The notes below the pieces were generated by a model that did no database searches, was not told the DNA's origin, and was given only the letters and a program-made list of their open reading frames with translations. 64,000 nt of DNA from Victivallis sp. Marseille-Q1083 (GTDB taxonomy: Bacteria > Verrucomicrobiota > Lentisphaeria > Victivallales > Victivallaceae), in assembly GCF_903645315.1 (NCBI RefSeq), contig NZ_CAHJXL010000001.1:1478001-1542000 (forward strand), in the 5' to 3' direction. The translations under genes and the position numbers were made by a program. Positions 18,518 to 58,124 of the stretch are shown here, one piece after another. Position 1 is the first letter of the stretch. Each line of letters opens with the position of its first letter.

Positions 18518-19282
18518 TCAGAAGTAGAGTACCTGTGTCGTTCCGGCCCTGCCGAAGCAAATGAAACCGCCGGACGTCGTATTGAACACATTGGGATTAT
18601 CGCTGCAGTTATTGACGAACTCCTGCGGCGTCATGCCGGTAACATGGCCGTCGAGGAAGGCGAGGTTGAACTTGCCGTTATGGCGGGCGTCATGGTAATA
18701 GTCGCCCATCGCCCGGGTGATCAGATAAGTCTGTTTGCCGGCATTGCTCCGGGAATCGGCGATGACGCTGGCTGCGGACGGGCTTTCCACCAGGATCGAA
18801 TTCAATATCCGGGCATTGCCGCCGGTCGCCAGGGCCGTTTCCGTCATCAGCCCTTTGGTGAGGTTGTACATCGTCTGGGTGCCACCGGAGGCATACACGC
18901 CGTAAATATGTTCCAGAAAGCCGCGGGAATCAAGATCGATTTCCAGAGTCGGACAACTGAATTCCTTGGGATCGGTGCTGCAGTAACCGCTCAGTTCCAA
19001 TGCATCCGCCCAGGTATAACGCCAGTCGCCGTCGTCGTCCTGCTGCTGTATATACAGCGGAATCTTTTCGGTGTTGTCGTTGGCATACATCGTCATATAC
19101 AGCATCGACTGTTTCAGATTGGAAATGCACTTCGCATTCATCGCCGCCGCCTTCGCTTTGCCCAAGGCCGGCAGCAGCATACTGGCGAGAATGGCGATGA
19201 TCGCGATTACAACCAGAAGTTCAATAAGTGTGAAGTTGACTCGGTGGTCAGTCCGGTCGGTCAGGTGAGAATTGCGTTTCAT
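18518..19282 (-). CDS. Pseudopilin with C-terminal H-x9-DG motif
   Basis: This is a 254-residue type IV pilin-like protein. After a charged leader comes the prepilin cleavage/methylation motif [17 protein letters not shown], cut by a prepilin peptidase before Phe, then the long N-terminal helix ([20 protein letters not shown]). Near the C-terminus [13 protein letters not shown] fits the H-x9-DG signature common in Lentisphaerae and Planctomycetes. Such proteins are assembled or exported through type II secretion/pilus machinery; whether this one is a structural pseudopilin or a surface carbohydrate-binding protein is not known. It precedes the secreted TIM-barrel gene in the GntR-linked cluster. 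Confidence 0.9.
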
Positions 19283-19410
19283 GACATTTTTCCTTTCTGC
19301 TTGTTCAGAAAATTTCTGTTCTTCTTCGAAAACCGATCCCTTTTACTTATCTTAAACCGCCTCGCGCCGTCCGCTTGAATTCCAGCGGCCGGCATCCGCC
19401 GGCAATTCAA

Positions 19411-20235
19411 CTACCAGAACAACTGCTTTCGCCGGCAGATCAACTCGAAATCGCTGTTCAACGGCAGGCCGGCGTCACCGCAGAGCTCGATCAATTCATG
19501 CGCGCTTTTCACCTGGTCGCGAATGTGACGGCGGGAAACCTGCTCGGCCTCCTCCACCGCCCGGCGCCGGATACAATCGAGAATCTGCCGGTGATTGTCG
19601 AGGGCGATCTCATTGTTGTAGGTCATGAACTGCTCCGGCGAGTACAATTTCGGAAACCGGCAGTTATTTTTCTGCTGCGACAACCGGAATTCCAATTCGA
19701 AACAAACCTTGACGGTAAGCCGGAAAAGAACGGTAAAATAACAGAGGTTGTTCGGGCTGGCAAACCGGGAATTCCCGCAGGAGTTGATGATTTCCATATG
19801 GAAGTTCAAATCGGCGAAAATCGACTGATTCCGGTCTTTGTTCATCACCGCTTCTCCGAACAGCGTCACCAGGCGCTCCAGGCGCTCCAGCACCAGATCG
19901 GAACGATGCTCCGCCAGCCGGCGCGCGGCAATCGGTTCGATGCCTTCCCGCAGTTCGTTCCAGTCGAGCATGTCCTTCAAGGTAAAATTCTTCACCCGAT
20001 AACCGCAGTAAGGCACATACTCCGCCACGCCCCAGCCGACCGCCTGGCTCAGCGCTTCCCGGACCGACGGCCGGTTGAGGCCGAATTCCTTGGCCAGCAC
20101 CGACTCCTTCAGCGCTTGGCCGGCCGCCACCTCACCGCTCAGCAGTTTTTTCAACAGCAATTCCTGGGCGAGCACGAAACCGGACTCCTTGGTATCCACA
20201 CCCCATTCTTCAATTGTTGCGTTGACCGCCATCAT
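19411..20235 (-). CDS. GntR-family transcriptional regulator (FadR/FCD type)
   Basis: This is a 274-residue regulator. An N-terminal winged helix (LKESVLAKEFGLNRPSVREAL) binds DNA, and the C-terminal all-helical FCD domain (NELREGIEPIAARRLAEH, DLNFHMEII, DNHRQILDCI) senses a small acid, often with a metal bound by Asp and His residues. It heads the lyase/reductase cluster on the same strand. Its promoter contains the palindrome AAATTGC-AA-GCAATTT over the -35 box, and the same site controls the FG-GAP gene, so autoregulation and joint control are likely. The effector may be the sugar acid handled by the cluster. Confidence 0.85.
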   Translation of the reverse strand: MMAVNATIEEWGVDTKESGFVLAQELLLKKLLSGEVAAGQALKESVLAKEFGLNRPSVREALSQAVGWGVAEYVPYCGYRVKNFTLKDMLDWNELREGIEPIAARRLAEHRSDLVLERLERLVTLFGEAVMNKDRNQSIFADLNFHMEIINSCGNSRFASPNNLCYFTVLFRLTVKVCFELEFRLSQQKNNCRFPKLYSPEQFMTYNNEIALDNHRQILDCIRRRAVEEAEQVSRRHIRDQVKSAHELIELCGDAGLPLNSDFELICRRKQLFW

Positions 20236-20271
20236 GCTCCTTTTTGCGATTGATATTTATCATTATTGTAA

Positions 20272-20307
20272 AGTATAGCAAATTTTTCGAAAAATTGCAA
20301 GCAATTT
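20272..20307 (-). promoter_or_regulatory. GntR gene promoter with palindromic operator
   Basis: On the minus strand TTGCAA (20295-20300), 17 bases and TATACT (20272-20277). The palindrome AAATTGCAAGCAATTT (20292-20307) covers the -35 box. Nearly the same block occurs at 23181-23216. Confidence 0.8.
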
Positions 20308-20371
20308 CTGACTAAAAATTACTTTTTCAGCAATTTTTTTTCACTTGCGCTCAAAAACTCCATTCCCGTCG

Positions 20372-23125
20372 TCACTCAAACCACAATTCGACCGCCGAAA
20401 CGCGCGGCGAATTGCCGCCGTTGGCCGCCCCCAGCCCCAGTTGATATTGACAGAAGCGGCTGGCGCCGACCGGGATGTTGACTGTCCGCGAACCGTGAAA
20501 CGCTTTCTCGCCGTAACTGGCGCCGAACCACGGCGCCCGCCGCAACCGGTCCGGCGTCGCGGCCATCCGCAGCCGCAGCGACACCCAGGTTTTCTTCTGC
20601 AATTCGGCGGCAAGGACAATTTCGCACAGCCGGGTGACGCCGGGTGGGATTTCCAGCACTCTGGAGGTAAAATATTCCTCTTCGGAGCCATCGCTGAGGT
20701 TATAGGCCGACGCCGTCACCATGCCCAACGGACCGATCGTCGGCAGCCGGACGGTATTTTTCGCTTCAAAACCGTCCGGCCCGTTGTACCAGATTTTCGA
20801 GCTGGCGACATGATTGCCGTAGGCGCGGTGATGGCAGACGGCCAGATCAATCCGGCCGTCTCCATCGAAATCGACCGCCATGCAGCCGGCCCCGGAGTGA
20901 TTGAACAGCCGGGTGCGGCGCTGCACCGAAAAGCCGTCGGCCGAGTTCCAGTAAAGGTAGGCGTCGATGTCGCGCGCCCGGCCGTTGTGATAACTGGTGA
21001 CGAAGATATCCGGCCGGCCGTCGCCGTTGAAATCGGCGATCACCAGCGAATTGGCGCCGTGAGCCGGCAGCGCGCAGCAGCGCGACTGCGAATAGCCGTC
21101 CGGGCCGCCCCAGAAGATCAGCAGGTTGGAATCGAACTTTTCACGTTTGCTGGGCGCGCCGTAACAGCCGACCACCAGATCCAGCCAGCCGTTGCCATTC
21201 AAATCGGCCGCCCGCGCACAGCAGGCGCCTTCCACCGGCAGCAAAGCGACATTGTCGCGGGAAAAACCATCCGGACCGCCCCAGAAAATCATTGAATGGC
21301 TCGCCATGATCTGCGGCACGAACAAATCCAGATAACCGTCGTTGTTGAAATCCGCCGTATAGAGAAAACGCGGCTGCCCCCAGTTTTTGACATCGAAGGA
21401 CGGATCGTCCTGGTATCCGGTTTTGCGCGGCGCATATTCCCGGCAGTCCGGGTCCAGATTGATGATCTGCGGCCGCTGTCCGTCGATGCCGTCCGGGCCG
21501 CCGCGGAAAATGCGCAACTCCGGATTGAAAAATCCGGTGACGGCGATATCCAGATAACCGCTGTGCCGGAAGTCGCCGACCGCGCTGCCGTGGGCCCGGT
21601 AAGTGTCCAGCACCAGCGGTTCGTCCGGCCGGAAACCGTCCGGACCGCCGAAATAGACGAAAGAACCCGGATCGTGCCGCGGCGAACACTCTGCGCTGTT
21701 GGTCACCAGCAGATCGGCCCAGCCGTCGTCGTTGAAATCGGCACAAGCCAAATCCACCGCCGAATGGCCGGGCAGCTCAAGGCGGCGGTCGGGGGAAAAA
21801 CCGCGCGCCGAATTCAGATAAATATAGACCGGCACATCGCCCAACGCCCGGCCGCCCATATTGTTGACGAACACCACGTGATTTTCGCCGGCGATGCGCA
21901 CCCGGCGCGCCGCCACCGCGTTGTGAGTCGCAAACGAATGGGGGCACTCCTCAATCCTTCCGGCTTCATCGGTCCGGTAGATCAGCGATTCAGTCGTAAA
22001 CATCGTCTCATTCTGCCCCTGGACCAGTACGATCGCACTGCGGCCATGCCCTTCCAGTTCGATGACCGCGGCCCCGCGCACATTACAGCCCGGCAAAGCC
22101 GTCGACCGGGCCGGTGAGAATCCGGCTGCCGAACCGTGCAACACCAGCGAATGCTGGACGGAATCGTCCTCCTGCCGGCAAACCGCCAGCACCAGGTCGT
22201 CGTACCTGCCGCTGCCGATCCGGCCGGCAGCGGCATCGACCGCTCCGGCGACCGGCAGGGCAAACGCTTTTTCCACCCTGCGTGCCCGGTCCACCCGAAA
22301 GAAAGCCGCCTCCTCCGGCGTCGGCTGAAAACAATAAGCCCGACCGTCGATCGTCACTATGGCGGCCCGCCAGCCGGGACAGAAGGCCCGTTTCGCCGCC
22401 GTAGTCAGCGACTGCATCCGGCTTTCCGGCCATTCGTCGGTGCCGAGTTCGGTGTAACAGTCGGCGGAGAGGCCGTTCGGCCCGCCCCAGTAAATGCGCG
22501 GTCCGCCGGAACGCATCCGCAAATAAAGTTCGGCGCAGCCGTCGCCGTCGAGATCGGCGGCTGCCATGCTCAAGCATTCCAGCGTCAGATCGCGGAAGCC
22601 GTCGGCGGCGAAACCGGAAGCCGTCGCCTTGAACATCCGCAGCCGCTCCGGGTTGCACAGAACGATTTCCAACTGGCCGTCACCGTCGAAGTCGGCGGCA
22701 ACCACGCCAAGCGCATCGGGCAGATAGAGTTCGGTTTTCCGATTCTCGTCGAAGCCGTCCGGACCGCCCCAGTAGATGAAGGAGGAGACATCCGCCGAAG
22801 CGCCGTCGCTCTGGTTGGCGACGATCAGTTCCTCATGGCCGTCGCCATTCAAATCCGCCGCACAGACATCAAACGCTCCCAGCGCCGGCAGCGAACGCAA
22901 TTGCGGTTCTTCAAACGGATGCCCCACCAGTCCCAGCGGCGGGCACTCGTCGATCTCCTGGCCATTGGCGAAAAACGCGTCGGCATAGCCGCTCTGCGTG
23001 ACGTCGAAGCGATGAATCCGCTGCAGGATACCCCGCCTGGAAACATAAATATTCTGTCCGCCGTTGCCGAAAATCCCCTGCCTGAACTCTTCAAACGAAG
23101 CATCGCCGATTCTTTTCCGTTTCAT
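20372..23125 (-). CDS. Large FG-GAP/VCBS repeat protein
   Basis: This 917-residue protein has about a dozen FG-GAP-type repeats, each with a calcium-binding D-x-D-G-D/N-G loop (ADLNGDGHEEL, ADFDGDGQLEI, ADFNNDGYLDL, ADFNGDGRPDI) and a YWGGPDGF blade motif, so it should fold as one or two beta-propellers. I see no clear signal peptide at the ATG 23125 (MKRKRIGDASF), which is supported by AGGGAG six bases upstream. A C-terminal beta domain follows after about residue 840. FG-GAP propellers bind ligands or polysaccharides, or act in lyases of the rhamnogalacturonan type. No catalytic signature is evident. It shares promoter and operator with the GntR gene and probably belongs to the same regulon. 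Confidence 0.8.
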   Translation of the reverse strand: MKRKRIGDASFEEFRQGIFGNGGQNIYVSRRGILQRIHRFDVTQSGYADAFFANGQEIDECPPLGLVGHPFEEPQLRSLPALGAFDVCAADLNGDGHEELIVANQSDGASADVSSFIYWGGPDGFDENRKTELYLPDALGVVAADFDGDGQLEIVLCNPERLRMFKATASGFAADGFRDLTLECLSMAAADLDGDGCAELYLRMRSGGPRIYWGGPNGLSADCYTELGTDEWPESRMQSLTTAAKRAFCPGWRAAIVTIDGRAYCFQPTPEEAAFFRVDRARRVEKAFALPVAGAVDAAAGRIGSGRYDDLVLAVCRQEDDSVQHSLVLHGSAAGFSPARSTALPGCNVRGAAVIELEGHGRSAIVLVQGQNETMFTTESLIYRTDEAGRIEECPHSFATHNAVAARRVRIAGENHVVFVNNMGGRALGDVPVYIYLNSARGFSPDRRLELPGHSAVDLACADFNDDGWADLLVTNSAECSPRHDPGSFVYFGGPDGFRPDEPLVLDTYRAHGSAVGDFRHSGYLDIAVTGFFNPELRIFRGGPDGIDGQRPQIINLDPDCREYAPRKTGYQDDPSFDVKNWGQPRFLYTADFNNDGYLDLFVPQIMASHSMIFWGGPDGFSRDNVALLPVEGACCARAADLNGNGWLDLVVGCYGAPSKREKFDSNLLIFWGGPDGYSQSRCCALPAHGANSLVIADFNGDGRPDIFVTSYHNGRARDIDAYLYWNSADGFSVQRRTRLFNHSGAGCMAVDFDGDGRIDLAVCHHRAYGNHVASSKIWYNGPDGFEAKNTVRLPTIGPLGMVTASAYNLSDGSEEEYFTSRVLEIPPGVTRLCEIVLAAELQKKTWVSLRLRMAATPDRLRRAPWFGASYGEKAFHGSRTVNIPVGASRFCQYQLGLGAANGGNSPRVSAVELWFE

Positions 23126-34076: not shown

Positions 34077-34105
34077 TTGCAATTGTCCCGAATCGAAATT
34101 ATATT
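34077..34105 (+). promoter_or_regulatory. Promoter of the riboswitch transcript
   Basis: TTGCAA (34077-34082) and TATATT (34100-34105) are spaced by 17 bases; transcription would begin about 34112, just ahead of the riboswitch. Confidence 0.7.
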
Positions 34106-34107
34106 AA

Positions 34108-34206
34108 TCTCCAGGTGATTCCAGTGCAATGAAGCCGGTGAAAATCCGGGACTATCGCGTAACTGTGAGCGGCGTGAGCCGCAAGTCAGAGCTTGCCGGA
34201 ATCAAA
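34108..34206 (+). ncRNA. Cobalamin (B12) riboswitch aptamer
   Basis: The conserved blocks of the cobalamin family appear in order: AGGTGATTCCAGTGCAATGA, then GAAGCCGGTGAAAATCCGG, then CGCGTAACTGTGAGCGG with its hairpin (GCGGCGTGAGCCGC), and the closing AAGTCAGAGCTTGCCGG. The ligand is an adenosyl- or aquo-cobalamin; in known cases binding shuts off expression. The next gene, 138 bases on, is a pseudopilin, an uncommon target. I see no clear U-tract terminator in between, so control at translation is more likely. Confidence 0.85.
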
Positions 34207-34343
34207 GTCGAATCGGCTGATTTCCGCGCCAGAAATCGATTCGGCGGGCACCCGACATCAACGGATGGCCTGTCGGTTCTTTCGGGGCGGGAAAACGCCG
34301 GTTCAGGTGCGCGCCACACTGAAAAACGAAAGGACGAATTCTC

Positions 34344-35156
34344 ATGCTGCGCATTGTTTCCGGAAATTCCACGACAGGGCGAACCGGAAGTTTCACTTTG
34401 ATTGAACTTCTGGTCGTCATCGCCATCATCGCCATCCTGGCCAGCATGTTGCTGCCGGCGTTGAGCAAAGCCAAAGCCAAAGCCCACGCCATTCTGTGCG
34501 TCAGCAATTTAAAACAGCTCGGCCTGAGCAACCTGATGTACGCGATCGATTCGAACGATTATCTGGTTCCCTACGCCACCGATATGATGACGACGAACCG
34601 CCACCGCTGGCATGGCGTCTCCGATACTTCCAGTTCCGGCGACGACGCCGACTACGACGCCTCGCGCGGTCCGCTGGCGAGCTATCTGGGCGGCACCGGC
34701 CGGGTGAACGAATGTCCGTCGATGACGGTGCCCGGCAACATCCAGGCTTTCGAGCGCGGCTGCGGCGGCTTCGGTTACAATACGATGGTCGGCACCTTGT
34801 TCGAAGGTTACAGCGACGAGGCATTTTCCGCCGGCCACAAAACGGTGAAGATCAATTCTTCCAGCCGGAAGATCATGTTCGCCGACTCCGGCATCCCGGT
34901 CAGTTCCTCCGGCGGCTGGGGAGAAGATTTGATGGGTTACAGTTCGTCGATCGAACCGGCCGGCGGTGTCTACCAGATGTGGCCGACGATGCATTTCCGC
35001 CACAACGACCGCGCCAACATCATCTTCTGCGACGGCCACGTCGAACCGATGACGATGGTGTCGACCAAAGGCAATTACGGCACGCTCTGGAACTTGGGGC
35101 ATCCCTGCACCAACGATGACGAAGGCCGGGCGGAGTTTTACGATCCGGACAAATAA
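34344..35156 (+). CDS. Pseudopilin with H-x9-DG motif, under riboswitch control
   Basis: This is a 270-residue pilin-like protein. A 16-residue leader precedes [17 protein letters not shown], cut by prepilin peptidase; then come [22 protein letters not shown] and a globular domain. The C-terminal [13 protein letters not shown] fits H-x9-DG. The start at 34344 has AAAGGA upstream. It is a monocistronic unit: a strong terminator follows at 35217-35262. The upstream B12 riboswitch suggests expression when cobalamin is scarce, which would fit a surface protein used to obtain cobalamin or corrinoid-bearing material, but nothing in its sequence shows a B12-binding motif. Confidence 0.9.
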
Positions 35157-38939: not shown

Positions 38940-41318
38940 TCATTTCAGCTCGGCCAGAAAAACTTCCAGGCTGTCGAGCTCCAGCGGCAGCACCCCGTTC
39001 CGGACCGGTCCCGGCGAGGAGGAACCGAACAACGGTTCGAGGTTCTTCCGCCCGGACAGCGGGAGGTTGACGGCAGCAGCGTGACGACTGGCGTTGACGA
39101 CCGCCAGAATCTGCCGGCCGTCGCCTTGCCAGATGCCGGCATAAACCGCCGGTGCCGGATCCGGCAGGCGGATCAACTCGCCTTCCAGCAGGAACGGTTC
39201 GAGGAATTTGATTTCCAGCGGCAGCTTTTTCATGAATTCCAGCGGTTCGGGCAGCTCGGCCAGCTTGAACTCGTTGTCGCTGTAAGTGTAGAAAATCAGG
39301 CCGGAAACGTCGGCCAGCAGCGCCTGATAGGTCATGTTGCGGATTTCCGCCGGTGTGCTGTAAGGTTGTTCGCCGAAAGCGAAAGTCTGGACGACCGCCA
39401 GCGGAATGCGTTCGTCCGCCCGCATGGCTTCGACCAGCATCGTCTGGACCGGATTGACTTTTTCGATTTTGCCGGTGGAAACCGGGTAATAGTCGTTGGC
39501 GATGACATCGGCGACCGCCCGGTAACGGGCGAAATTCATCGGCATGACGATCACCGTGTAAATCAGCCGTTCCGGATCGAGCTGCTGCCATTTCCGGTAA
39601 ACTGACGCGAGCGATTCGGAGGCGACGCCGGAGAGATCCGGTTCGTCGGTGACATTCCAGCCCATGATCGCTTTGCGGTCGAGCAAGCCGGTCAGCAATT
39701 TGTCGTCGACGCCTTCCAGGATGACCCGGACGCCCAACGCTTCGGCCCGGTCGAGAAAGGCCGCCAGCGCCGGGTCTTCCGGTTGCTTGCAGGAGACGTG
39801 CAAGGTATTGTAGCCGTAGCGTCCGGCGAATTCCAGACAGGCCAGACGGTCTTCGGCCGGCAGGCTCCAGGAAACGTGGTAGAGGCCGAGCGGAAAGAAT
39901 TTCCGGCCGTTTTCGACGAAGCGGTTTTTCGGCGGCGCCAGCGAAAAGCGCGGCGAATCGGCGCGCACCGTCAGTTGGTCGGCCGGCGTCTGAAAATAAC
40001 TCTTGCCGTCCGGAGCGAGAACCGTCCCGCGGAATTCATACGTCCCCGGCTCCAGCTCGGCCAGCTCCAGCAAGGCGTAATTCCGATCCAGCGGCTTGAC
40101 CGGAACGGGGCGGTCGTTGCAGCGCAATTCCGCCCGGTAACCGGCCCGGGCCAGATAATCGGCGAAATTCCAGACGATGGAAACTTTGTTCCGGGTGGCC
40201 GGGTAGACGATACTGCGATTCAGCGCGAATACCAACGGTTGCGGGATGGAAACCTGGCGCGCCAGATGCAGCGAACGAGGCGTTTCGATTTCCAGCGCCA
40301 GATCCGCCCCGGTCCGGCCGCCCGGTGAAACCGGGAAACTTTGTTCCCGTCCTGTGGCGGTGAAGGCTTTTTCATACCATAGGTTGCCGTCGGCCGGATC
40401 GGTCAAACGCAGGACGCCGGTCGGAGCGGGTTGATTTGCCGGGAAACGCAGGTCGAGCACGATGGAGTCGCCGTCCGGTGTCCGGCGCAGGGTGAAGGCT
40501 TCCAGGGTCCAGCCGGCCCGGCGCATCTTGCTGTCGACAATCAGGTTGTCGAGCAGCGCCCCGAAGGCTTCCGGCGCCCGGCCGATGACGGCGCAGGAGG
40601 TCAGGGCAACGGTGCCGCCGCCCAGTTTTCTGACTGCCATGAAACTGTCGTTTTCGGGACAGGCGATCAGATTTTCCCAGCCGTCCGGCAATTTGAGATG
40701 CGCCCAGAGGCCGAACGCGGCGGCAGCGAAGGATTCGGCCGCCGGCTGCGGCCTGGTCAGCAGCGGATGCTCCCGGAAATGCATCAGTCCGGCCCGTTCT
40801 TCGTACGAGGTCGTCGAAACGTCGTAATCCAGTGCGGCACAGCCGGTGGTTTCCACCTCGGCTTCAAATGCTTTGCCCAGGTGGTGAATGACCGAATCGA
40901 CCGCACTTTGATAATTGGCGTCGACGACCAGCAACACGCCGCCGCCGGTCAGGTAGGCCAGCCAGGCGTCATGCCAGACTTTGAAATCCTGCGGCTCTTC
41001 GTAATTGCCGAGCGTTCCCACCACCACGGCGTCGTATCGGGGCAGCGAACCGGCCAGACGGTCCAGGGCGGCCGGCGTATTGTCATAGGCATCGACTTCG
41101 AAAAAACGGGAAAGGGCCTCGGCTTCCGGATAGCCGCTGCGGGCCTGGATGACGGCAATTCTGCCGGCCGGCCGGGCGGCGCAGCAGAAGACGGACATGA
41201 AAACCGCCAGCACCGGAAAAAGCCGGTGGAAAAATATGTTTCCGCCCGGCGGGGCGAACCGCTGCCGGGTGAAAAGTGAACGGGACCGGAGAACGAAATC
41301 GATGTTTGCTTTCATCAT
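38940..41318 (-). CDS. Secreted TIM-barrel glycoside hydrolase-like protein with N-terminal GATase-like domain
   Basis: This is a 792-residue exported protein: a long basic N-region, then hydrophobic LFPVLAVFMSVFCCA as signal sequence. Residues about 50-250 resemble a class I glutamine amidotransferase-like fold (YDAVVVGTLGNYEEPQ, GGGVLLVVDANYQS) as found fused to glycosidases. Beta-sandwich domains cover about 260-450. A catalytic-type barrel starts at FVENGRKFFPLGLYHVSW and includes MGWNVTDEPD, a GH-A clan-like strand-4 N-x-x-D-E-P pattern. A C-terminal beta domain ends the protein. It follows a pseudopilin gene by 28 bases. It shares its central barrel architecture with the protein at 48622-50628. 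GH family not identifiable by eye. Confidence 0.65.
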   Translation of the reverse strand: MMKANIDFVLRSRSLFTRQRFAPPGGNIFFHRLFPVLAVFMSVFCCAARPAGRIAVIQARSGYPEAEALSRFFEVDAYDNTPAALDRLAGSLPRYDAVVVGTLGNYEEPQDFKVWHDAWLAYLTGGGVLLVVDANYQSAVDSVIHHLGKAFEAEVETTGCAALDYDVSTTSYEERAGLMHFREHPLLTRPQPAAESFAAAAFGLWAHLKLPDGWENLIACPENDSFMAVRKLGGGTVALTSCAVIGRAPEAFGALLDNLIVDSKMRRAGWTLEAFTLRRTPDGDSIVLDLRFPANQPAPTGVLRLTDPADGNLWYEKAFTATGREQSFPVSPGGRTGADLALEIETPRSLHLARQVSIPQPLVFALNRSIVYPATRNKVSIVWNFADYLARAGYRAELRCNDRPVPVKPLDRNYALLELAELEPGTYEFRGTVLAPDGKSYFQTPADQLTVRADSPRFSLAPPKNRFVENGRKFFPLGLYHVSWSLPAEDRLACLEFAGRYGYNTLHVSCKQPEDPALAAFLDRAEALGVRVILEGVDDKLLTGLLDRKAIMGWNVTDEPDLSGVASESLASVYRKWQQLDPERLIYTVIVMPMNFARYRAVADVIANDYYPVSTGKIEKVNPVQTMLVEAMRADERIPLAVVQTFAFGEQPYSTPAEIRNMTYQALLADVSGLIFYTYSDNEFKLAELPEPLEFMKKLPLEIKFLEPFLLEGELIRLPDPAPAVYAGIWQGDGRQILAVVNASRHAAAVNLPLSGRKNLEPLFGSSSPGPVRNGVLPLELDSLEVFLAELK

Positions 41319-41346: not shown

Positions 41347-42111
<765 letters not shown>

Positions 42112-42159: not shown

Positions 42160-43179
42160 TCAATTTTTTACGAGCTTGAATTGAGTAAAATTCTCAAACA
42201 TCCAATTGTTTTTTAATGTTCTATACACGATATCGAGGAATTTGCGAGCCAAGGCGATATTGGCTTTCGCACCTCCCCGCCGACTTTTTACCGATTCATG
42301 AAAGGCATTGAGATACGGGCTGTAGCGTTTGGCGATCAAAGCGCATTGCACCAAAGCGGTTCTGGCGATCTTGCTGCCGCTCTTCGTGATTCTTCCGTGG
42401 CAAACCGTGTCATTTGAATTGCTCACTCTGGGGACGATTCCGATATAAGCGGCCAACTGCTTTGCCGATCGGAAATCAGCGATATTGCCGATGGTTGCCA
42501 ACAGGATCGCCGCACCTTTCGAGCCGATTCCCTTGATGGATTTCAGGTTGTCGAAGCCGTCCATCTTGCTGCCGTGATCCTCAATCGCCTTATCCAGTTT
42601 TTCAATGCTTTTGTTCAGACTGCGAATCTGTTCGACAACCACCAGCATTTCCGTGTCGGTGATCGGGTCGAAGTGATAACTCAATGCTTTCAAAAGCCCT
42701 TTCTCCGTGGACAGTTCTTCCCGTTTCAGCACGATGAAGTTAGCTGCTAACAGATTGTTGACTTTGTTTTTCAATACGGTACGCAACTGAACCAGTTTTT
42801 CCCTGGTCTGCGTCAGACTTGAAATTTTCGCCTGCAAATCGTCTTTCACTCTTACCTCCGGAAGCATATCCTTTTCCAGGAACTCCGCCAACACTTTTGC
42901 GTCATGTTTGTCCGTCTTTTTGGTGGACATGCTGATGACTTTGAACTGTGATGGATTCACCACCACCAGTCGCCCGACATGAGCTTTCAGCGAGCTGCAA
43001 AACATGAACGTATTTCCGGTCGCCTCCACCGCCATCGCCGTGTTCGGACCGAGCATTGCGGCAAAGCCCTTCAGTTCGGTAATCTCACACTTGCCGATTT
43101 TCCGTTCTTCCCCATTTACCCGGATGCAATAAGTAAAATTGTTCCGGTGCAAATCCACTCCAACAAAACTTGTCATCAT
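42160..43179 (-). CDS. IS110-family transposase
   Basis: This is a 339-residue DEDD-type recombinase. The N-terminal RuvC-like part has SFVGVDLHRNNFTYC (first Asp), AVEATGN (Glu) and KKTDKHDAKVLAEFL (the Asp pair). The C-terminal Tnp_IS116/IS110/IS902 domain has IKGIGSKGAAILLATIG and AYIGIVPRVSNS, with the catalytic Ser region near GRITKSGSKIARTAL. The ATG at 43179 sits six bases behind GGAGG. Recent work shows such elements use a bridge RNA from a non-coding end for target choice; a candidate lies upstream at 43228-43330. The frame is intact and full length, so the element may be active. Its exact ends are not visible because this group lacks long inverted repeats. Confidence 0.92.
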   Translation of the reverse strand: MMTSFVGVDLHRNNFTYCIRVNGEERKIGKCEITELKGFAAMLGPNTAMAVEATGNTFMFCSSLKAHVGRLVVVNPSQFKVISMSTKKTDKHDAKVLAEFLEKDMLPEVRVKDDLQAKISSLTQTREKLVQLRTVLKNKVNNLLAANFIVLKREELSTEKGLLKALSYHFDPITDTEMLVVVEQIRSLNKSIEKLDKAIEDHGSKMDGFDNLKSIKGIGSKGAAILLATIGNIADFRSAKQLAAYIGIVPRVSNSNDTVCHGRITKSGSKIARTALVQCALIAKRYSPYLNAFHESVKSRRGGAKANIALARKFLDIVYRTLKNNWMFENFTQFKLVKN

Positions 43180-43549: not shown

Positions 43550-43780
43550 ATGAATCGTTTCATTTGTCTTTATAGGAAGAATAGCAAAAAAATCGGCAAT
43601 AGTCAAGAGTTGAATGGAAAAAAATCCGATTTCTTATTCGTCGGCCGGCGGAAAACTTTCACATTCACAGAATTGCTCGTCGCTCTCACAATCATTTCGA
43701 TTCTTTTCAGTGACATTACCCCGTACTATTGCCGGGCGGTGAATTTTGATAATTCACACGCGATCTCGGCGAGAAGCTGA
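43550..43780 (+). pseudogene. Pseudopilin N-terminal remnant
   Basis: An open frame encodes RRKTFTFTELLVALTIISIL, then FSDITPYY and a short unrelated tail ending SARS. This matches the prepilin motif and first helix but lacks the rest of the protein and the DG motif, and the frame upstream is not pilin-like. Prepilin motif residues such as Glu5 are kept. It appears to be a truncated, decayed pseudopilin next to the IS110 element. Confidence 0.6.
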
Positions 43781-48621: not shown

Positions 48622-50628
48622 TCATCGTACGTTGTCCAGAAACAGCACATCCGAACACATCTCCTGTCCGGAGAAATGCCAGTGGTTGTTTTTTCCGGCG
48701 GCGGTTCGTCCCAGCCGGGACTGCCACCGGCCGGACGGCAGTACGATATCCGCTTCGGCCGGTCCCGGACCGAGGGCGACGACCAGCACCGCTTCGCGGC
48801 CGTCATCGGCGATAAAACGTCGCGCCAGCACTTCGCCTTGCTGGAGCTCGATTTCGACTTCCGGCGCGATTCGGTCGCCAAGGACGTAATCGCCCAGTTC
48901 CCGTGTCAGTGCCGCGACGCGGCAGATTGCCGGCCAGCGTTTGTCGAACTCCTCCGGGTCCGGCCCGGCGAACAGATCGAAGTAACTGTACATCAGGATG
49001 CCTTTGGCGCCGCCGATCAAGGCCAGATGGGTCTGGGCGTGCATCTGCGTCTCGGTCGGATAAATATATTCCTCGTGCCCGGCGAAACCGTCGGCTGCCG
49101 AAAGACGGTAATGGCCGAAATTGAAAATCTGCGGACAAATCCACATCGCTCCGGCGGAATCGACCGAAGTACGGGTAATACGGCGGTTGATTTCAATCCA
49201 GTCTTGACAGTTCCGGAGCGATTCCGGCTCGCTGTGCTTGCCGAGCGGATAGGGGTCGGCGGCGCAGATGTCGGCGGTGCCGCCGAGCAATAACGACATC
49301 GGCGAAGCCTGATAGAACACCATCAGCGTCGGATGCCACGGATCGAGCCGGTTGATCCAGTTGCGGCGGCCGCGGTGCAGGTCGCGCAGTTGGGGTGGAT
49401 CTTCATCGAACGTGTAGTAGGCCAGCAGCGCCGGATGGGATTGGAAGGCGGTGACGATGCGGCGCAGCGCGTCCCGTTCCCCCTGGCCGCCGGCGAAATC
49501 GGTCCACCAGGTTTTCTCCTCCCGGATATCTTTGACCGATAGAATCACTTTCAAATTATTTTTCGCCGCTTCGTCCAGAAAACCGTTGACGCGGGCGATG
49601 TCATCGGCATGGTCGCCACGCCGGTAGAGTAGAAAACTGTAAGGCAGGATTGTATTGAACGGCGATTCCCCGATGATCTGCAGATCAGTTTCCAGCGGAT
49701 TGGCAAGTTGCCGGGTGCGCGCGTCGATGGTGTTGAGAAACAAGCCCAACGGAAAGAATTTTTTGCCATCGACCAGCAGCCGGCCGGCCCGATCCAGAAT
49801 TGCGGCATTGGCCGGCTCAACGGCATCGGCCGGCAGAACCTGAAGCGGAATATCGGTTGTTTCGAGTATGTTGCCGGCGGCGTCGAGCAGCCTGGTCGTC
49901 AGCGTAAAAGCACCAGCTTCGGAAAATTTGAGTCTGCCGTGCGCCCGTTCCCGAGAAACGGCGGTGGAGAAGTGATCCACCAGTTGACCATCCCGGTACA
50001 ATTCAGCCCGAAGCTGTCCGGCCAGATTGCTGCCGGAATCGTAGACACCGAGTTCGATTTCCTGTTCGCCGGGGCGCAACGCGCCCGGCTGGGCCGGCTG
50101 CAGCAGATAGGTCGAATAGAAAATTTTCGGCATAACCGCCGCATGACGCAACCAGGCCTGACCGGTCGAACCTTTGAAGATGCCGAAGCCGAATTTGCCG
50201 CGGACCGCTTCGGACGGCACCGCCATTTCGAAACTGACCTCGGTCCAGTCCCGGGCGTTGGTTTTAGGATAAACGCCGCCGAGATATTCGCCGTCGCGGT
50301 CAAAATATTCGACATAGGCAAAAGCGACGCCAGCCGACAGTTCGGTTTTGATTTCGGCGGTGAATTCATAGATGCCCGGCGGAAGGTCGATCTCCCGCGA
50401 GGCGTGATAATAATCACCCCGCTCGGTTCGCCCGGCAACCAGAATATGAGTCCCGGGTGAATCGGGGTTGTCCAGAAAATGATGTTCGGGAGTGAGTGCC
50501 CACGCTGCGATATCACGTAATTCCGGATCGGCCAGTATGTTGTCCCCACTTGCGAAAGCGGCGGTAAAAGGCGTTCCGCTGAGCAGAAGCAATGCCGGAA
50601 ACAACAGGAAAAGAAAATGTTTTTTCAT
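48622..50628 (-). CDS. Secreted TIM-barrel glycoside hydrolase-like protein
   Basis: This is a 668-residue exported protein: MKKHFLFLLFPALLLLSG signal, start at 50628 behind GGAGA. Residues about 30-165 form a carbohydrate-binding-like beta domain (HASREIDLPPGIYEFTAEIK, YVEYFDRDGEYLGGVY), then a second beta domain, then the barrel from RLLVDGKKFFPLGLFLN. Barrel strands include LLAYYTFDEDPPQL with Asp-Glu in the position of a catalytic acid, and GILMYSYFDLFAG. The barrel start matches that of the 38940-41318 protein. It follows a pseudopilin by 32 bases and precedes the GDPD gene by 79. No GH family assigned. Confidence 0.65.
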   Translation of the reverse strand: MKKHFLFLLFPALLLLSGTPFTAAFASGDNILADPELRDIAAWALTPEHHFLDNPDSPGTHILVAGRTERGDYYHASREIDLPPGIYEFTAEIKTELSAGVAFAYVEYFDRDGEYLGGVYPKTNARDWTEVSFEMAVPSEAVRGKFGFGIFKGSTGQAWLRHAAVMPKIFYSTYLLQPAQPGALRPGEQEIELGVYDSGSNLAGQLRAELYRDGQLVDHFSTAVSRERAHGRLKFSEAGAFTLTTRLLDAAGNILETTDIPLQVLPADAVEPANAAILDRAGRLLVDGKKFFPLGLFLNTIDARTRQLANPLETDLQIIGESPFNTILPYSFLLYRRGDHADDIARVNGFLDEAAKNNLKVILSVKDIREEKTWWTDFAGGQGERDALRRIVTAFQSHPALLAYYTFDEDPPQLRDLHRGRRNWINRLDPWHPTLMVFYQASPMSLLLGGTADICAADPYPLGKHSEPESLRNCQDWIEINRRITRTSVDSAGAMWICPQIFNFGHYRLSAADGFAGHEEYIYPTETQMHAQTHLALIGGAKGILMYSYFDLFAGPDPEEFDKRWPAICRVAALTRELGDYVLGDRIAPEVEIELQQGEVLARRFIADDGREAVLVVALGPGPAEADIVLPSGRWQSRLGRTAAGKNNHWHFSGQEMCSDVLFLDNVR

Positions 50629-50660: not shown

Positions 50661-51347
50661 TTAATGAACCGGCAGCCAGTAGACCTGGCAATAATCGTCT
50701 TCGGACCACTCGTCATAATGCCCGGCTTCGGCGCGGCCGTCCACATGAAGCTGATTCAGTTTTTTGCCGTGGCGCACATGCAGATATCGTTGGGCATCCG
50801 TCCGGGAGAGTACGGCGAAATAAGGCCCCCAGGTCTTCGTCGCGGCGGCGCAACCGTCGGCAATCTGAACCGTGTTTGAAGTCAGGCAAGCCATCCCGGA
50901 ACGCACCGGATTGTTGTAACCGCCCCACTCCAGCCGTCCCATATAGACGTTATAGAGATAATTGGTCGTCGTGATGATTATACCGGTGTTGGTTTCGTTG
51001 GTGGCAAATTCGCAGGAATCGGCCGGACAACTGAAAATTTCACTGTACTTATCGCCCGCCTTGAGTTCGGTCAAGGTTCCGCCGACGTATTCGTACATTG
51101 ATTCATGCCACGGGGTGCCGTAAAAGATTTTGCGGCCATTCGGATCCAACGTCATCGGCAGATATTCGTCGTTGTCGCCGCTGTACAACGCACTGGCCAG
51201 TCCCTGCTGTTTGAGATTGCCGATGCATTTGATCTGCAGCGCCTTGGCTTTGGCCTTGGCCAATGCCGGCAGCAACATGGAAGCAAGTATGGAAATGATC
51301 GCTATAACGACGAGTAATTCAATAAGTGTGAAGCTGGTTTTCGACAT
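50661..51347 (-). CDS. Pseudopilin with H-x9-DG motif
   Basis: This is a 228-residue pilin-like protein with a very short leader (MSKTS) and [17 protein letters not shown], then [22 protein letters not shown]. The C-terminal [13 protein letters not shown] keeps H-x9-DG. It is first in a run with the secreted barrel enzyme, GDPD and dehydrogenase genes; the LacI regulator gene lies 186 bases upstream. Cys pairs in the middle ([10 protein letters not shown]) may form a disulfide in the globular head. Confidence 0.9.
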
Positions 51348-51533: not shown

Positions 51534-52583
51534 TCAGTCGGTTTCTGCTGCACTCACCGGCAACCGGGCGAAACACGCGGACCCCCGTTCGACCAGTTGC
51601 GGCATGATCTCGACCGAAGCGGGACGCTCACCGGTTTGAATCCAGTCAAGCAGCAATCTGGCGGCATCGTGTCCGGCCCGGGTATGATCAAGTTCGATCG
51701 TACTCAACGCCGGACGGGTAAAACGGCAGAAGCGCTCTTTGCCCCAGCCGACGACGGCCAACTGACCGGGCACCGAAACACCGGCATCGTTCAGAAGCGG
51801 CAACAGATCCATCGCCCAAAGATTGCTGGCGACGATCACGCTGTCCAGTTGTTCCCGCTTGATCAGAATTTCGACTGCCTGTTGCAGGTGCCGATGAGTT
51901 TCGGCGTCGGACAGTTTATCCACCGGCGGCATCAGATAGATGCGTCGCGGATCGACGATCCTGCGCCGGAACTGCTGGAGGCGGGTCCGGGAGGATGGAT
52001 AAGGGGAATCTTCGGTGATGATGCCGGAGCGGGTCCGGCCGCCGGCGTTGAAATGGTCGAGCGCGATGGTCACCGCGCAGTCGGCATAACTGACGCTGAC
52101 GGCGTTCGGCACAACCGGACGGTCGACAAAAACGATTTTATCTTCCTCGTTACCGAAATATTTCCGGATCCGTTCACTTTCGCCGGGATAGTCGTGCGCC
52201 ATCGTGATGACGCCATCGACACTGTATTGCTTGAATACCTGATAACTCTCGGCCAGTTCTTCGACGTTGTCGTGGGCGACTGCGACCATGACCCGGTATT
52301 GCCGGCCGGCGGCGAATTGTTCGATGCCGGCCAGTGTCTGCCAGCCGGACGCGGCCGCCATGCTGTCGATAAAAACACCGATCACCTGGGTTTTCCGCCC
52401 GGTCAGGGCGCGGGCGTTCAAATTGGGCCGGTAATGCAACCGCTCGGCCGCTTCGCGAATCCGCCTGGCAGTCTCCGGCCGTACCCGAATGTTGGTATCG
52501 CCGCCGGAAAGGACCTTGACCACCGTCGCTTTACAGACGCCGGCAGCTTTGGCGATGTCGATCAAAGTGGTACGCTGCTGCAT
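51534..52583 (-). CDS. LacI-family transcriptional regulator
   Basis: This is a 349-residue repressor. The N-terminal helix-turn-helix (TLIDIAKAAGVCKATVVKVL) is slightly divergent from the usual VSxxTVSRVL, and the hinge RLHYRPNLNARALTGRKT is present. The periplasmic-binding-protein core (VIGVFIDSM, VDGVITMAHD, KIVFVDRP, SVPGQLAVVGWG) should bind a sugar. It is located upstream of the pseudopilin-enzyme-GDPD-dehydrogenase run on the same strand and probably controls it. Its own leader contains a symmetric AT-rich site (52594-52613) suggesting autoregulation. Confidence 0.9.
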   Translation of the reverse strand: MQQRTTLIDIAKAAGVCKATVVKVLSGGDTNIRVRPETARRIREAAERLHYRPNLNARALTGRKTQVIGVFIDSMAAASGWQTLAGIEQFAAGRQYRVMVAVAHDNVEELAESYQVFKQYSVDGVITMAHDYPGESERIRKYFGNEEDKIVFVDRPVVPNAVSVSYADCAVTIALDHFNAGGRTRSGIITEDSPYPSSRTRLQQFRRRIVDPRRIYLMPPVDKLSDAETHRHLQQAVEILIKREQLDSVIVASNLWAMDLLPLLNDAGVSVPGQLAVVGWGKERFCRFTRPALSTIELDHTRAGHDAARLLLDWIQTGERPASVEIMPQLVERGSACFARLPVSAAETD

Positions 52584-53818: not shown

Positions 53819-53823
53819 TCTAT

Positions 53824-54745: not shown

Positions 54746-54800
54746 ATTCACCTTCCTAGTGTTTGATGATAACATAGCAATATTTTTCATGTTTTCAACT

Positions 54801-54922: not shown

Positions 54923-54961
54923 GACCCCCCGAATTTAATCTAAAAAAAAGCGCAGGGGGGA

Positions 54962-55013: not shown

Positions 55014-55045
55014 CTTTCCAAAAGAACACAACGAAAGGAACTGCG

Positions 55046-56155
55046 ATGAAAATAAGGTGGACAGGATTGCTTGCCGCGCTGACTTTGGGCTGGGTGAATG
55101 CCGCGGAGCTTCCCCCGCCGGTGATCGGCGGCTATTATGAAGTCGGCGGCGATTACGACAGTTATCCGTGCGACCGGGTTCATCCGGATTACAACATCCT
55201 TTACAATGCGTTTCTGCAGGCCGGTGCCGCCGGCGAACTGTTGCTGGATCAGGAGCATCTGCCGAACCCGGAGCTGGTCAGGCACGGCCATCAGCGCAAT
55301 CTGCCGGTACTGGTTTCGCTCGGTGGTGTCACGCCGTTCGTCGAAGTGACCGCCACACCGGAAAAATGCGCCGCTTATGTCGATAAAGTGATCAAACACG
55401 TTCAAAAGTACGATTACGACGGCATCGACGTCGACTGGGAGCACCCGCGCGAACCGGAGCAGGGCGCGCGCTGGACAGCATTGATCCGGTCGCTTCGCAG
55501 CGAACTGGACAAACTGGGCAAGCGGAACGGCCGGAAGATGTATTTGACCACCGCTTTGCCGCCGGGCGACTGGGCCTGGCAACATAACGACTTCGCGGTG
55601 ATGCGGGACTGCCTGGATTACATCAACGTGATGTGCTACGATTCCGGCTGGAACTCCTCGACCTATCATGCGCCGATGCACGCCAATCCAGCCGATCCCG
55701 GCCAGGTCAATTTCGTCGAGCAATTGGAATTTCTGGAAAAAAAGGTCGGCTATCCCCGCTCGAAAATCATCGTCGGACTGCCGTTTTACGGCAACTATTT
55801 CGAGGCGGACCAGCCTTTCGTCCCGGTCGATCCCCAGCATTGGCGGCAGGTGACTTATGCCGACGCGCTGAAGCTCAGCGAAGGATATAAACGGAGCTAC
55901 GAAGTAAACTCCGGCGGAGTCTGGGCCTGGGCGCCGGATCAAAAAAAGCTGGTCATTTACGATTCGCCGCAAAGCATTTACGACAAGACGCAGTATTATC
56001 TCAACCAGGGATACGGCGGGGTCTTCTGCTGGGCGGTCAACCGGGATGTGCTGCCGGACGGCAGCCAGCCGCTGACCGGGGCGATGATGCAGTCGGCAAA
56101 CGATTTCAGCGCCGCCCAGGCGGTAAAATCGAAAAAAATTACCGCCGGCGATTGA
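55046..56155 (+). CDS. Secreted GH18 chitinase-like enzyme
   Basis: This is a 369-residue exported protein: MKIRWTGLLAALTLGWVNAA is a signal peptide; the start at 55046 has AAAGGA upstream. The GH18 catalytic motif is complete: YDGIDVDWEHP with D125, D128, D130 and the acid E132. Other barrel blocks: LPVLVSLGGV, MYLTTALPPGDW, YINVMCYDSGW, KIIVGLPFYGNYF and GVFCWAVNRD. It should cut chitin or N-acetylglucosamine-containing glycans by substrate-assisted catalysis. No chitin-binding domain is attached. It shares promoter and operator with the hybrid regulator gene that follows, so it is presumably repressed by it until the sugar is present. Confidence 0.92.
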   Translation: MKIRWTGLLAALTLGWVNAAELPPPVIGGYYEVGGDYDSYPCDRVHPDYNILYNAFLQAGAAGELLLDQEHLPNPELVRHGHQRNLPVLVSLGGVTPFVEVTATPEKCAAYVDKVIKHVQKYDYDGIDVDWEHPREPEQGARWTALIRSLRSELDKLGKRNGRKMYLTTALPPGDWAWQHNDFAVMRDCLDYINVMCYDSGWNSSTYHAPMHANPADPGQVNFVEQLEFLEKKVGYPRSKIIVGLPFYGNYFEADQPFVPVDPQHWRQVTYADALKLSEGYKRSYEVNSGGVWAWAPDQKKLVIYDSPQSIYDKTQYYLNQGYGGVFCWAVNRDVLPDGSQPLTGAMMQSANDFSAAQAVKSKKITAGD

Positions 56156-56203
56156 CTTTTTATCGAAAATATACTATACTTTAATCAAATACTGGCAATG
56201 CCA
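56152..56203 (+). promoter_or_regulatory. Promoter-operator of the GntR/LacI hybrid regulator
   Basis: TTGACT (56152-56157, overlapping the chitinase stop), 17 bases, TATACT (56175-56180), then the palindrome TGGCAATGCCA (56193-56203) at the same 13-position offset as upstream of the chitinase. Probable binding site of the encoded regulator. Confidence 0.85.
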
Positions 56204-56260
56204 CTTCAAATCAACCGGAATGCCACAAATACGGATACGGAACTGGCGAAAGAATAGAGA

Positions 56261-57457
56261 ATGATGGAATCGGCGCCGAAAATAGTTTTAGACAACAACA
56301 GCCCGCTGGTCACCCAGGTGGCGCAATATCTGCGTTCCTACATCGGCGCCAATTTGCAAACCGGCGACAAACTGCCGTCGGAACGGATGCTGTGCAAAAT
56401 GTTCGGGGTGTCGCGGATCACGGTCGGCAAGGCAATCGCTTCGCTGGTTCAGGAAGGCGTCGTCTACCAACTGCACGGTTCCGGCACCTATGTCGCCGAT
56501 CCGGCGGCGGCGGATAGCAGCACCATCGCCGTGGCGGTCTACCACAGCGACAATGCCTTCTACAGCAAAGTGGTCAAGGCGATCCAGGAAGAAGCCGCCC
56601 AGGCCGGTTTCCACACGCTGCTGATCAACACCAAGGGCGAACGGGAGGCCGAAAATATCGCCCTGCGCAAGCTGCGCGGCAAAGTATCCGGCATCATTCT
56701 GGCGCCGGCGATGAACGCCGACGACGAAATTTCCAGCGAACTGGCGGCATTGATCGGTGGAAATTTTCCGGTGGTGGTCATCTGCCACAGCGGGCGGTTT
56801 CCGCTGCCGGTCAACACGGTGATCCCCAATTATCATCTGGGCGGTTATCTGGCGACCTCCCACTTGATTGAGCGCGGCTATCGCCGGATATTGTTCGGCG
56901 CGACCGGCAATATTTTTTACCGCCAGGACATTCAACTGCGTTTTTCCGGGTATCTCCAGGCGTTGAAGGACCACCGGCTGGCTTTCCATGAAGAGTGGCT
57001 GGTGATGGGCGACGGCCAGGATGTCTTCAACGGCTTCTTCCAGGACGGCCTCCAGGCGGCGGAACGGGTGGCGGCGCTGCTGGAACCGGATACGGCGCTG
57101 TTTTCGCTGGGCGACTCCTTCGCCATCGGCCTGCTGCGGGGACTGCGCGAGAAAGGCATCGCCGTCCCGGAGCAGTGCGGCCTGTGCGGCTTCGACGATA
57201 TCGAACTGGCCGGCCAGTGGGGCATCGAACTGACCACCGTCAAGGTACTGTGCGAGGACATCGCCCGGGAATCGGTGCGGATCGTCGCCGAACAGATCCG
57301 CCGCCAGCACCGATTGATCGAAAACGTCATCACGCCGGTGGAGCTGGTCCCCCGCCGCACCACCCTTGGCAAAGGCCCCCGGCAGAGGATCGGTTTCCCA
57401 ACCGGCAATAAAACAGGAATGGTTCCTCCGAATCAATCGTTTTCCAACCAAAATTAG
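56261..57457 (+). CDS. GntR-type winged helix fused to a LacI-type sensor (AraR-like regulator)
   Basis: This is a 398-residue regulator. The N-terminal GntR winged helix has [20 protein letters not shown] and [11 protein letters not shown]; the rest is a periplasmic-binding-protein-like sugar sensor ([41 protein letters not shown]). This is the AraR-type fusion, normally a repressor released by a sugar. A second ATG follows at 56264. The gene and the chitinase carry matching operators, so it likely represses both. A C-terminal tail of about 30 residues beyond the domain has no recognised function. Confidence 0.9.
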
Positions 57458-57473
57458 TGAAAGGACACTCGAA

Positions 57474-58124
57474 ATGAAACACCGGGAACAGTTTACATTG
57501 ATTGAATTGCTCGTCGTAATTGCGATCATTGCCATTCTCGCCAGCATGCTGCTGCCGGCACTCGGCCGGGCCAAAGCCAGCGCGATGGCCACCAAATGCC
57601 TTTCCAATCTCAAACAGAACGGCCTGACGCTGATCATGTATGCGGACGAGAGCGCCAACAGCCTGCCGCCGACCTACGACGACAACACGAATTGCACCTG
57701 GGGGGAAACGATGAAGAATTCCGGCTACGAATCTCCGGCCATCCTCTGTCCAACTGGCACGCCGTCCGACTACGACGCCGGCGACCACTGGTTCCGCTAC
57801 AGCTACGGCATGTGGGCCTACGATTACAACTACGTGATCAAACTGACCGACAGTTTCACCGGCGCCGGCGGCATTCCCTATACCAAGGAAGGCTTGAGCA
57901 AAATGATCGTGCTGGCCGACTCGCTGGACGATCCGGCCACCCAAACGCAAATGTATCACATCTATGGCTGGATTGAAGGCTCGCGCCTCTTCGATTTGCG
58001 GCACAACCAGAAGTGCAACGCTCTTTTCGGCGACGGCCATGCCGCCGGTTTCAATGCCGACGAAGCCAACGAGCTGGGCATCCAATACTATTACCGAAAC
58101 GGCGTGGTCGGCAAAAACTGGTAA
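57474..58124 (+). CDS. Pseudopilin with H-x9-DG motif
   Basis: This is a 216-residue pilin-like protein: [23 protein letters not shown] and [22 protein letters not shown]. The C-terminal [13 protein letters not shown] fits H-x9-DG. The ATG at 57474 is behind AAAGGA; the longer frame from 57366 overlaps the regulator gene. It lies 16 bases after the regulator and is followed by a GC hairpin and a LamG/phosphodiesterase gene. Confidence 0.92.

Follow-up and report, generated by a model that had tools for sequence, protein, structure and literature searches.

A repeated regulator-pilin-secreted protein gene module in Victivallis sp. Marseille-Q1083

A 64,000-nucleotide stretch of the Victivallis sp. 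Marseille-Q1083 genome (the window, C1:1478001-1542000, in a genome of 4.82 Mb on five contigs) carries five intact, open genes for proteins related to type IV pilins, four of them directly upstream of a co-directional gene. A sequence-only reading of the window had interpreted these proteins as secretion tips dedicated to single enzymes or as surface pilins that bind substrate. We analysed such genes across this genome and in other genomes, and the results strongly support a repeated module of regulator, pilin and secreted protein. The modular pilins share an almost invariant N-terminal helix and differ widely in their heads, and their genes have relocated singly between loci. We propose, tentatively and at somewhat less than even probability, that they are exchangeable capture subunits on a retractable type IV pilus that are co-induced with enzymes digesting the cargo.

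The pilin set comprises the 150 scored PF07963 (N_methyl) matches that were listed from 198 first-look candidates. We scanned 110 stretches around the listed matches, together with the window, with our own gene caller and a motif search. In total, 162 frames with a pilin motif were found, of which 148 rows are of the modular type; these rows count one pilin twice at a stretch edge and represent at least 147 distinct pilins among the listed matches and their neighbours, since an unlisted pilin turned up in another stretch (L332). Secreted proteins were called by two crude signal-peptide rules of our own, the first of which overlooked cases obvious by eye. The control for rule 1 (109 of 494 genes) scores following pilins as non-secreted and is lowered by this. 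A first set of control stretches (L123-L132) was picked from gaps and hence is pilin-free, with L130 consisting of N throughout; seeded random stretches were added, of which 14 of 15 were readable (L317 is N throughout).

The next downstream gene lies on the same strand for 136 of the 148 pilins (nine of these genes are themselves pilins) and within 250 bases for 121. By rule 2, 100 of the 115 direct, tight, non-pilin followers look secreted, compared with 22 of 104 genes standing next after another gene in the seeded random stretches (Fisher P 6e-24); the median length of the same-strand followers is 753 amino acids (aa). On the upstream side, the first non-pilin gene encodes a LacI, GntR or AraC regulator for 87 of 148 pilins. 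A scan of 128 upstream genes gave overlapping matches to Peripla_BP_3 (55), GntR (41), LacI (23) and AraC-type (10) families, and the union of regulators by our own profiles amounts to 78 of 128 genes, against 11 of 369 control genes. Counted over the whole genome, secreted followers and regulators are thus far above the controls, and random placement of the pilins, set beforehand as the refuting outcome, is itself refuted genome-wide.

Many followers match none of the listed families. The remainder of the Pfam scan, which covered 120 of 127 followers with seven omitted, was led by GH123_cat (22), DUF4838 (11), Glyco_hydro_42 (8), DUF6259 (6) and Laminin_G_3 (6); seven followers match Peripla_BP_3, so that some followers are regulators. 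The genome holds 38 GH123_cat matches, 21 directly behind a listed pilin, five farther down its operon, five with no pilin in view and seven outside the pilin stretches. Five of the last seven loci were fetched. One lies behind the unlisted pilin in L332, and the enzyme at C1:2461231 (L331) has neither a signal peptide nor an adjoining pilin. The other three (L333-L335) have no pilin directly upstream, and their products look secreted, two by rule and one by eye.

The modular pilins belong to the type IV pilin/pseudopilin superfamily. Pilin structures match their N-terminal profile, TIGR02532 is above its cut-off in all five window pilins, and Glu5, Pro22 and Cys36 are present in 148 of 148 rows. 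Letter for letter, 134 of 148 rows (133 of 147 distinct pilins) share the same first 24 residues of the mature protein. Because no two of the 133 readable DNA versions of this stretch are alike and their synonymous sites are near the codon-usage expectation, the N-terminal protein sequence is kept by selection. The idea that the N-terminus was recently duplicated or gene-converted was rejected, as the 72-base stretches differ by a mean of 12.8 bases, compared with 14.7 simulated from codon usage. The heads diverge, with 83 of 148 unclustered at a normalised score of 0.3, and are under purifying selection, with ratios of nonsynonymous to synonymous substitution (dN/dS) between 0 and 0.48 for nine of the ten pairs and no computable value for the tenth. 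In the AlphaFold2 model of the window pilin at position 57474, the helix spans residues 9-59. A lectin fold was considered for the head, and none was found by Foldseek with this model. A group II intron match lies in one pilin stretch (L029:9404-9480, minus strand).

The family models describe the window pilins unevenly. The strict H-x9-DG string, by which the sequence-only reading had typed them, occurs in four of the five (109 of 148 rows genome-wide); pilin 41347 has H-x10-DG instead, and TIGR04294 (H-X9-DG-CTERM) is above its cut-off in three of the five. PF07596 (SBP_bac_10/DUF1559) exceeds its gathering score in one, is just under it in another and is without a match in three. In the named genomes, no single-protein relatives of pilin 41347 were found.

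Pilin genes change neighbours as single genes. In two pilin pairs of about 95-96% DNA identity, homology starts 15 bases before the start codon and stops at the stop codon or 23 bases past it, with unrelated flanking genes; in a third pair (90% DNA identity, weakly related enzymes), it ends at both edges of the pilin gene. Conversely, the enzymes at C1:2056367 (L071) and C1:2946594 (L095) are near-identical (dS 0.01), whereas the pilins before them are diverged (dS about 0.45); the upstream sides differ, with the switch at the 3′ end of the pilin gene. Because near-identical pilins adjoin unrelated genes and near-identical enzymes follow diverged pilins, we conclude that pilins, enzymes and regulators have been reassorted. 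More broadly, where two pilins have close heads and each is directly followed by a gene (27 pairs), the followers are unrelated in 18 pairs; the 27 pairs overlap in their members (29 pilins), their followers include regulators, an oxidoreductase and a symporter, and the operons of pair 62-93 share an SSF gene and show no clean swap.

The module is not confined to this genome. In 40 stretches from twelve other genomes, a sample skewed towards the best N_methyl scores, we found 42 such pilins, 39 of them with a same-strand neighbour (itself a pilin in six cases). Of the tight followers other than pilins, 17 of 31 look secreted, against 30 of 115. Upstream genes (n = 37) include GntR (8), Peripla_BP_3 (8) and AraC-type (6) matches, and followers (n = 33) include DUF4838 (3), GH42 (2) and GH123 (2). 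The most frequent follower of these top-scoring pilins is Wzy_C (PF04932; 7 of 33, L193-L232), a family that includes pilin glycosyl ligases. In the Victivallis sp. genome, seven Wzy_C genes are over the cut-off, all more than 5 kb from any listed pilin, and Wzy_C is not one of the first 25 families listed for the followers there. Eighty further loci were named by records that keep their own taxon labels (22 Lentisphaeria, 44 Verrucomicrobia, 8 Akkermansia, 2 Planctomycetes and 4 unlabelled), several 'Akkermansia' labels of metagenome-assembled genomes being doubtful. Among tight followers, those that look secreted number 16 of 20 in Lentisphaeria, 10 of 17 in Verrucomicrobia, 1 of 3 in Akkermansia, 1 of 2 in Planctomycetes and 0 of 1 in unlabelled loci, against 72 of 239 control genes; the pattern is clear in Lentisphaeria and weaker elsewhere. 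In Victivallis vadensis DSM 14823 (L282, L297), a GntR plus Peripla_BP_3 regulator, a pilin and a GH42 or carbohydrate-binding-module-bearing protein stand in a row.

Across 61 genomes, the number of pilins and the number of Peripla_BP_3 genes have a rank correlation of 0.92, or 0.80 given genome size, on first-look counts; the partial correlation is 0.76 on scored counts in 39 genomes with full listings. The corresponding value for pilin number and T2SSE number, given genome size and over the same 61 genomes, is 0.015.

One window pilin stands alone, with no co-directional gene behind it, and is preceded by a cobalamin riboswitch, as the sequence-only reading had noticed. RF00174 matches exactly at its gathering score, and the model for the adenosylcobalamin (AdoCbl) riboswitch gives 44.6 bits (E 5e-7), below its gathering score of 50. 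To look for other riboswitch-driven pilins, 48 of the 49 stretches holding a pilin without an upstream regulator were scanned, and no riboswitch reached its gathering score there. The genome has no match to PF07980 (SusD) or PF07715 (TonB plug), for both of which control genomes were positive; PF00593 was not searched. That a B12 riboswitch controls a lone pilin although the genome gave no TonB plug match separates the pilin from enzyme export and favours a nutrient-binding role.

Candidate genes for a pilus machine are present. One cluster encodes two PilB/GspE-like ATPases, PilT and a PilC/GspF-like protein, with no pilin gene in its 10-kb stretch, and the PilT family is over its cut-off at five genes, one of them two-domain. 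A 734-residue protein with tandem PilT stretches is encoded at L340:1450-3654. The MUL2 locus of Akkermansia is reportedly pilus-like and comprises amuc_1099-1102; here, the neighbour of two Amuc_1098-type secretins matches the Amuc_1099 family with 63.7 bits (cut-off 50). A pilin gene with a related N-terminus (C1:1283123-1283782; L337:3624-4283) adjoins these secretin genes on the opposite strand.

We suggest that each module is a regulated nutrient-acquisition unit. Inducer binding to the LacI, GntR or AraC regulator would cause the pilin to be made together with the product of the second gene, usually a Sec-exported protein and often a hydrolase. The invariant N-terminal helix would admit the pilin to a common filament, with the variable head as the capture surface. 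Assembly would be carried out by a type IV machine composed of PilB/GspE-like ATPases, PilT-family retraction ATPases, a PilC/GspF-like platform and Amuc_1098-related secretins, and we infer that the modular pilins feed this pilus. The pilin might then hold a polymer or other ligand at the surface, retraction could bring it to the envelope, and the co-made enzyme would cut it there; the riboswitch-controlled lone pilin may work likewise on a ligand that does not have to be cut. Taken to its full extent, this would be a TonB-independent uptake route in which one retractable pilus is fitted with any of well over 100 receptor pilins. Each would be induced with its enzyme by a sugar of its own, or by a shortage of B12, and the pilin genes would move between loci as single-gene cassettes. 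This extended version is possible and more doubtful than the capture proposal itself. The alternative of a surface pilin resembling SusD, offered by the sequence-only reading, fits our data better than that of secretion tips, although no literal SusD partner is present, as neither SusD nor a TonB plug was matched.

Several observations weigh against this proposal. Pilin genes do occur in the neighbourhood of the ATPase cluster, about 5 kb before and about 6.5 kb behind it. The assembly ATPases score 658 and 604 bits with the PilB model (cut-off 675.65), the second being slightly nearer to GspE; the PilC/GspF-like protein is below the curated cut-offs; secretins are present, with the two Amuc_1098-type members reaching 277 and 217 bits against a cut-off of 750. 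With the model of pilin 57474, in which the predicted local distance difference test value is under 50 for 44 of 216 residues, Foldseek returned no structure at E 0.001, the best hits being pilins at 0.47. Because substrate-specific heads should track the sensors, the near-zero correlation between regulators and heads (r 0.02, reached by 112 of 2000 permutations) is a further difficulty. Near-identical pilins in unrelated loci weaken the one-to-one reading as dedicated tips, and they also weigh against the capture proposal. The cross-genome correlation takes no account of phylogeny. Several GH123-type proteins that look secreted lack a pilin immediately before them, so that the pilin is usual and not obligatory.

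The same genomic data also fit pilins that act as surface adhesins or anchors and attach the cell, or its secreted enzyme, to the substrate, with no import. An adhesin or anchor role has been proposed for pilin-like cellulose-binding proteins of Ruminococcus. The Wzy_C followers in other genomes, through the link of this family to pilin glycosyl ligases, fit true surface pili, and passages of the Akkermansia paper give MUL2 a likely attachment role and describe MUL1 as Sus-like (PMC13174399), which also speaks against the capture proposal. However, a pilin under a B12 riboswitch makes little sense as an adhesin, and the five PilT-family genes point to retraction. We regard tethering as a rather unlikely explanation of the modules.

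The pilins could instead be extra pseudopilins of a type II secretion system (T2SS) that help to export the co-expressed protein, either as a tip or as a looser cargo adaptor. Most tight followers look Sec-exported, the signal-less GH123 enzyme at C1:2461231 has no adjoining pilin, and the genome contains four T2SS operons. Three of these operons are on C2, which has eight listed pilins, against 142 on C1. For the alginate operon of Verruconatronum, T2SS export is what its authors propose in the passages concerned (PMC13274419). Each of the four operons here, however, has its own GspG over the curated cut-off as well as further pseudopilin-like genes, and pilin number does not track T2SSE number given genome size. 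The T2SS tip pseudopilin GspK lacks Glu5, and the modular pilins do not fit this tip criterion, as all 148 have the residue.

We also compared the similarity of heads with that of enzymes. Over 126 modules, the Mantel correlation is 0.21, which none of 5000 permutations reaches; when only the presence of similarity is scored, it is 0.046 (25 of 5000 permutations). When close heads are excluded, 6.8% of head hits come with an enzyme hit, compared with 5.0% of the remaining pairs, and the regulator-enzyme correlation is 0.08. Covariation is therefore significant, as export by adaptors would have it, but weak and frequently mismatched, an outcome between support and refutation of the dedicated pairing that had been predicted. 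Homologues of the window enzyme 48622 have a modular pilin within 1.5 kb upstream at 13 of 22 loci; three of the 13 belong to this genome and ten to six others, which represent three genera. Among the nine remaining loci, several are cut by contig ends. The heads of the ten pilins from other genomes are close (71-73%) only inside a genus; one is 34% identical to a head of this genome, and the rest show weaker or no clear similarity. For 10 of 10, the most similar head in this genome precedes a non-homologous gene, which argues against an adaptor, although chance would often give the same result (8 homologous of 126 modules). Dedicated tips in particular are not well supported, considering the GspG of each T2SS, the retained Glu5, the weak covariation and the lone pilin under B12 control, which has no enzyme to export. 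We consider a T2SS function of either form unlikely. Least probable is a generic dosage role, in which one interchangeable pilin per secreted-protein operon matches filament supply to load and heads have no specificity: the single-gene relocation and invariant N-terminus agree with it, but the heads are under purifying selection and yet widely different between loci, and large proteins that look secreted mostly do without a pilin (in the seeded stretches, 3 of 20 follow one).

The features of the window are collected in Table 1, where genes are those named above by their first position. Three pilins lie behind regulators, as had been noted. The claim of a TIM barrel is supported for the 48622 enzyme, from which a profile search reaches GH158, GH5 and GH2 structures, and for its distant homologue 38940 (25% identity, E 7e-8, profile probability 99.4%); the 16687 protein is not assigned to a family. 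A signal-like stretch is visible by eye in 38940, where rule 1 did not call one. The LamG-phosphodiesterase behind pilin 5 has the domains Laminin_G_3 and Exo_endo_phos, in line with the sequence-only reading. For pilin 5, ATG 57474 was preferred over TTG 57366 as the start. A pilin remnant does exist, at about 43658 on the plus strand and not at 43550 as first placed; its frame retains 12 of the 24 N-terminal residues (next best frame 7 of 24), and blastp of the region gave nothing at E 1e-3. Special clustering of pilins in the window was rejected, since C1 has a mean of 2.3 listed pilins per 64 kb and 111 of 954 sliding 64-kb windows hold at least five. The IS110 transposase occupies the regulator position of the other modules; an IS110 match occurs in four of the 128 upstream genes scanned. 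Downstream of module 1, a sodium:solute symporter region (12269-14026, minus strand) is split into two frames (12269-13036 and 13166-14026), with the SSF match in the second, and is possibly broken. At the left edge of the window (590-1425, minus strand), the short frames 590-817 and 1198-1425 are near-identical.

Table 1. Pilin loci of the window and their neighbours
Feature	Position	Strand	Remark
Secreted-looking protein directly 3′ of pilin 1	16687..18435	-	no Pfam match
Modular pilin, module 1, 254 aa, H-x9-DG	18518..19282	-	PF07596 24.1 bits, cut-off 23.3
GntR-FCD regulator 5′ of pilin 1	19411..20232	-	
Cobalamin riboswitch (AdoCbl-type) before lone pilin	34103..34246	+	
Lone modular pilin, 270 aa, H-x9-DG, not followed by a co-directional gene	34344..35156	+	
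Enzyme-like protein 3′ of pilin 3	38940..41318	-	distant homologue of 48622
Modular pilin, module 3, 254 aa, H-x10-DG	41347..42111	-	
IS110-type transposase directly 5′ of pilin 3	42160..43179	-	
Pilin remnant, broken N-terminus	43658..43729	+	
Secreted enzyme 3′ of pilin 4, CBM-like N-terminal domain and TIM barrel, GH158/GH5/GH2-related	48622..50628	-	
Modular pilin, module 4, 228 aa, H-x9-DG	50661..51347	-	
LacI regulator 5′ of pilin 4	51534..52583	-	
GntR + LacI-type sensor regulator 5′ of pilin 5	56264..57457	+	
Modular pilin, module 5, 216 aa, H-x9-DG	57474..58124	+	AlphaFold2 model
Secreted Laminin_G_3 + Exo_endo_phos protein 3′ of pilin 5	58211..59803	+	

For the uptake of large glycans by Planctomycetes, Verrucomicrobia and Lentisphaeria, we offer a gene module whose regulators predict the inducing conditions. 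Because the module is also found in the cultured relative Victivallis vadensis, the mode of uptake becomes directly testable. The capture proposal would assign a role to a very large expansion of pilins and present them as evolving in the manner of exchangeable parts; uptake by TonB-independent pilins, if true, would be the genetic basis of 'selfish' polymer uptake in the wider Planctomycetes-Verrucomicrobia group. Should the import reading fail, what would still stand is a large set of regulated pilins linked to exported proteins.

Parts of this picture are already in print. In the open PubMed Central literature, we met no genome-wide regulator-pilin-secreted protein module, no relocation of pilin genes and no B12-controlled member; the portions of PMC6388578 and PMC11361711 concerned hold nothing on pilins, and the search words are absent from PMC8857213 and PMC10880615. 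Passages of PMC8567305 describe expansions of N_methyl plus SBP_bac_10 (DUF1559) pilins in Planctomycetes; here, by comparison, gene order was counted against controls, and one of the five window pilins passes the PF07596 cut-off. Closest in content are the passages on Verruconatronum, where a pulG-like pseudopilin with 67 homologues in that genome belongs to an alginate-induced operon (PMC13274419). The likeness extends to the induced polysaccharide operon and the many homologues, but those passages concern one substrate, explain it by T2SS export and mention no genome-wide module, gene relocation or riboswitch.

In Planctomycetes, passages of PMC5394234 report gold-dextran on pili-like fibres and dextran that reaches the periplasm in a manner sensitive to carbonyl cyanide m-chlorophenylhydrazone (CCCP), and call the polysaccharide uptake system still to be characterized; that text never uses the word pilin, and the present evidence is from sequence. 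In Akkermansia, glycan accumulation depends on mul genes, and MUL2 is pilus-like, according to the passages of PMC13174399. These observations from the same superphylum agree in part with the capture proposal. Pilus-like genes are tied to glycan acquisition there as here, where Amuc_1099 is over and the Amuc_1098-type secretins are under the cut-off, but MUL2 is one locus, whereas well over 100 pilins are under separate control in Victivallis sp. With GspG and GspH the modular pilins share a class III signal peptide and a hydrophobic helix; in contrast to these, their scores are 25-31 bits where the cut-offs lie at 88.85 and 80 (with TIGR01710, the GspG model, the five window pilins reach 25.2 to 30.5 bits), and true GspG genes are found elsewhere in the genome. 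As in the SusC/SusD polysaccharide utilization loci of Bacteroidetes, each locus combines one regulated surface component with enzymes; unlike in those loci, with no SusD or TonB plug here, the repeated component is a pilin.

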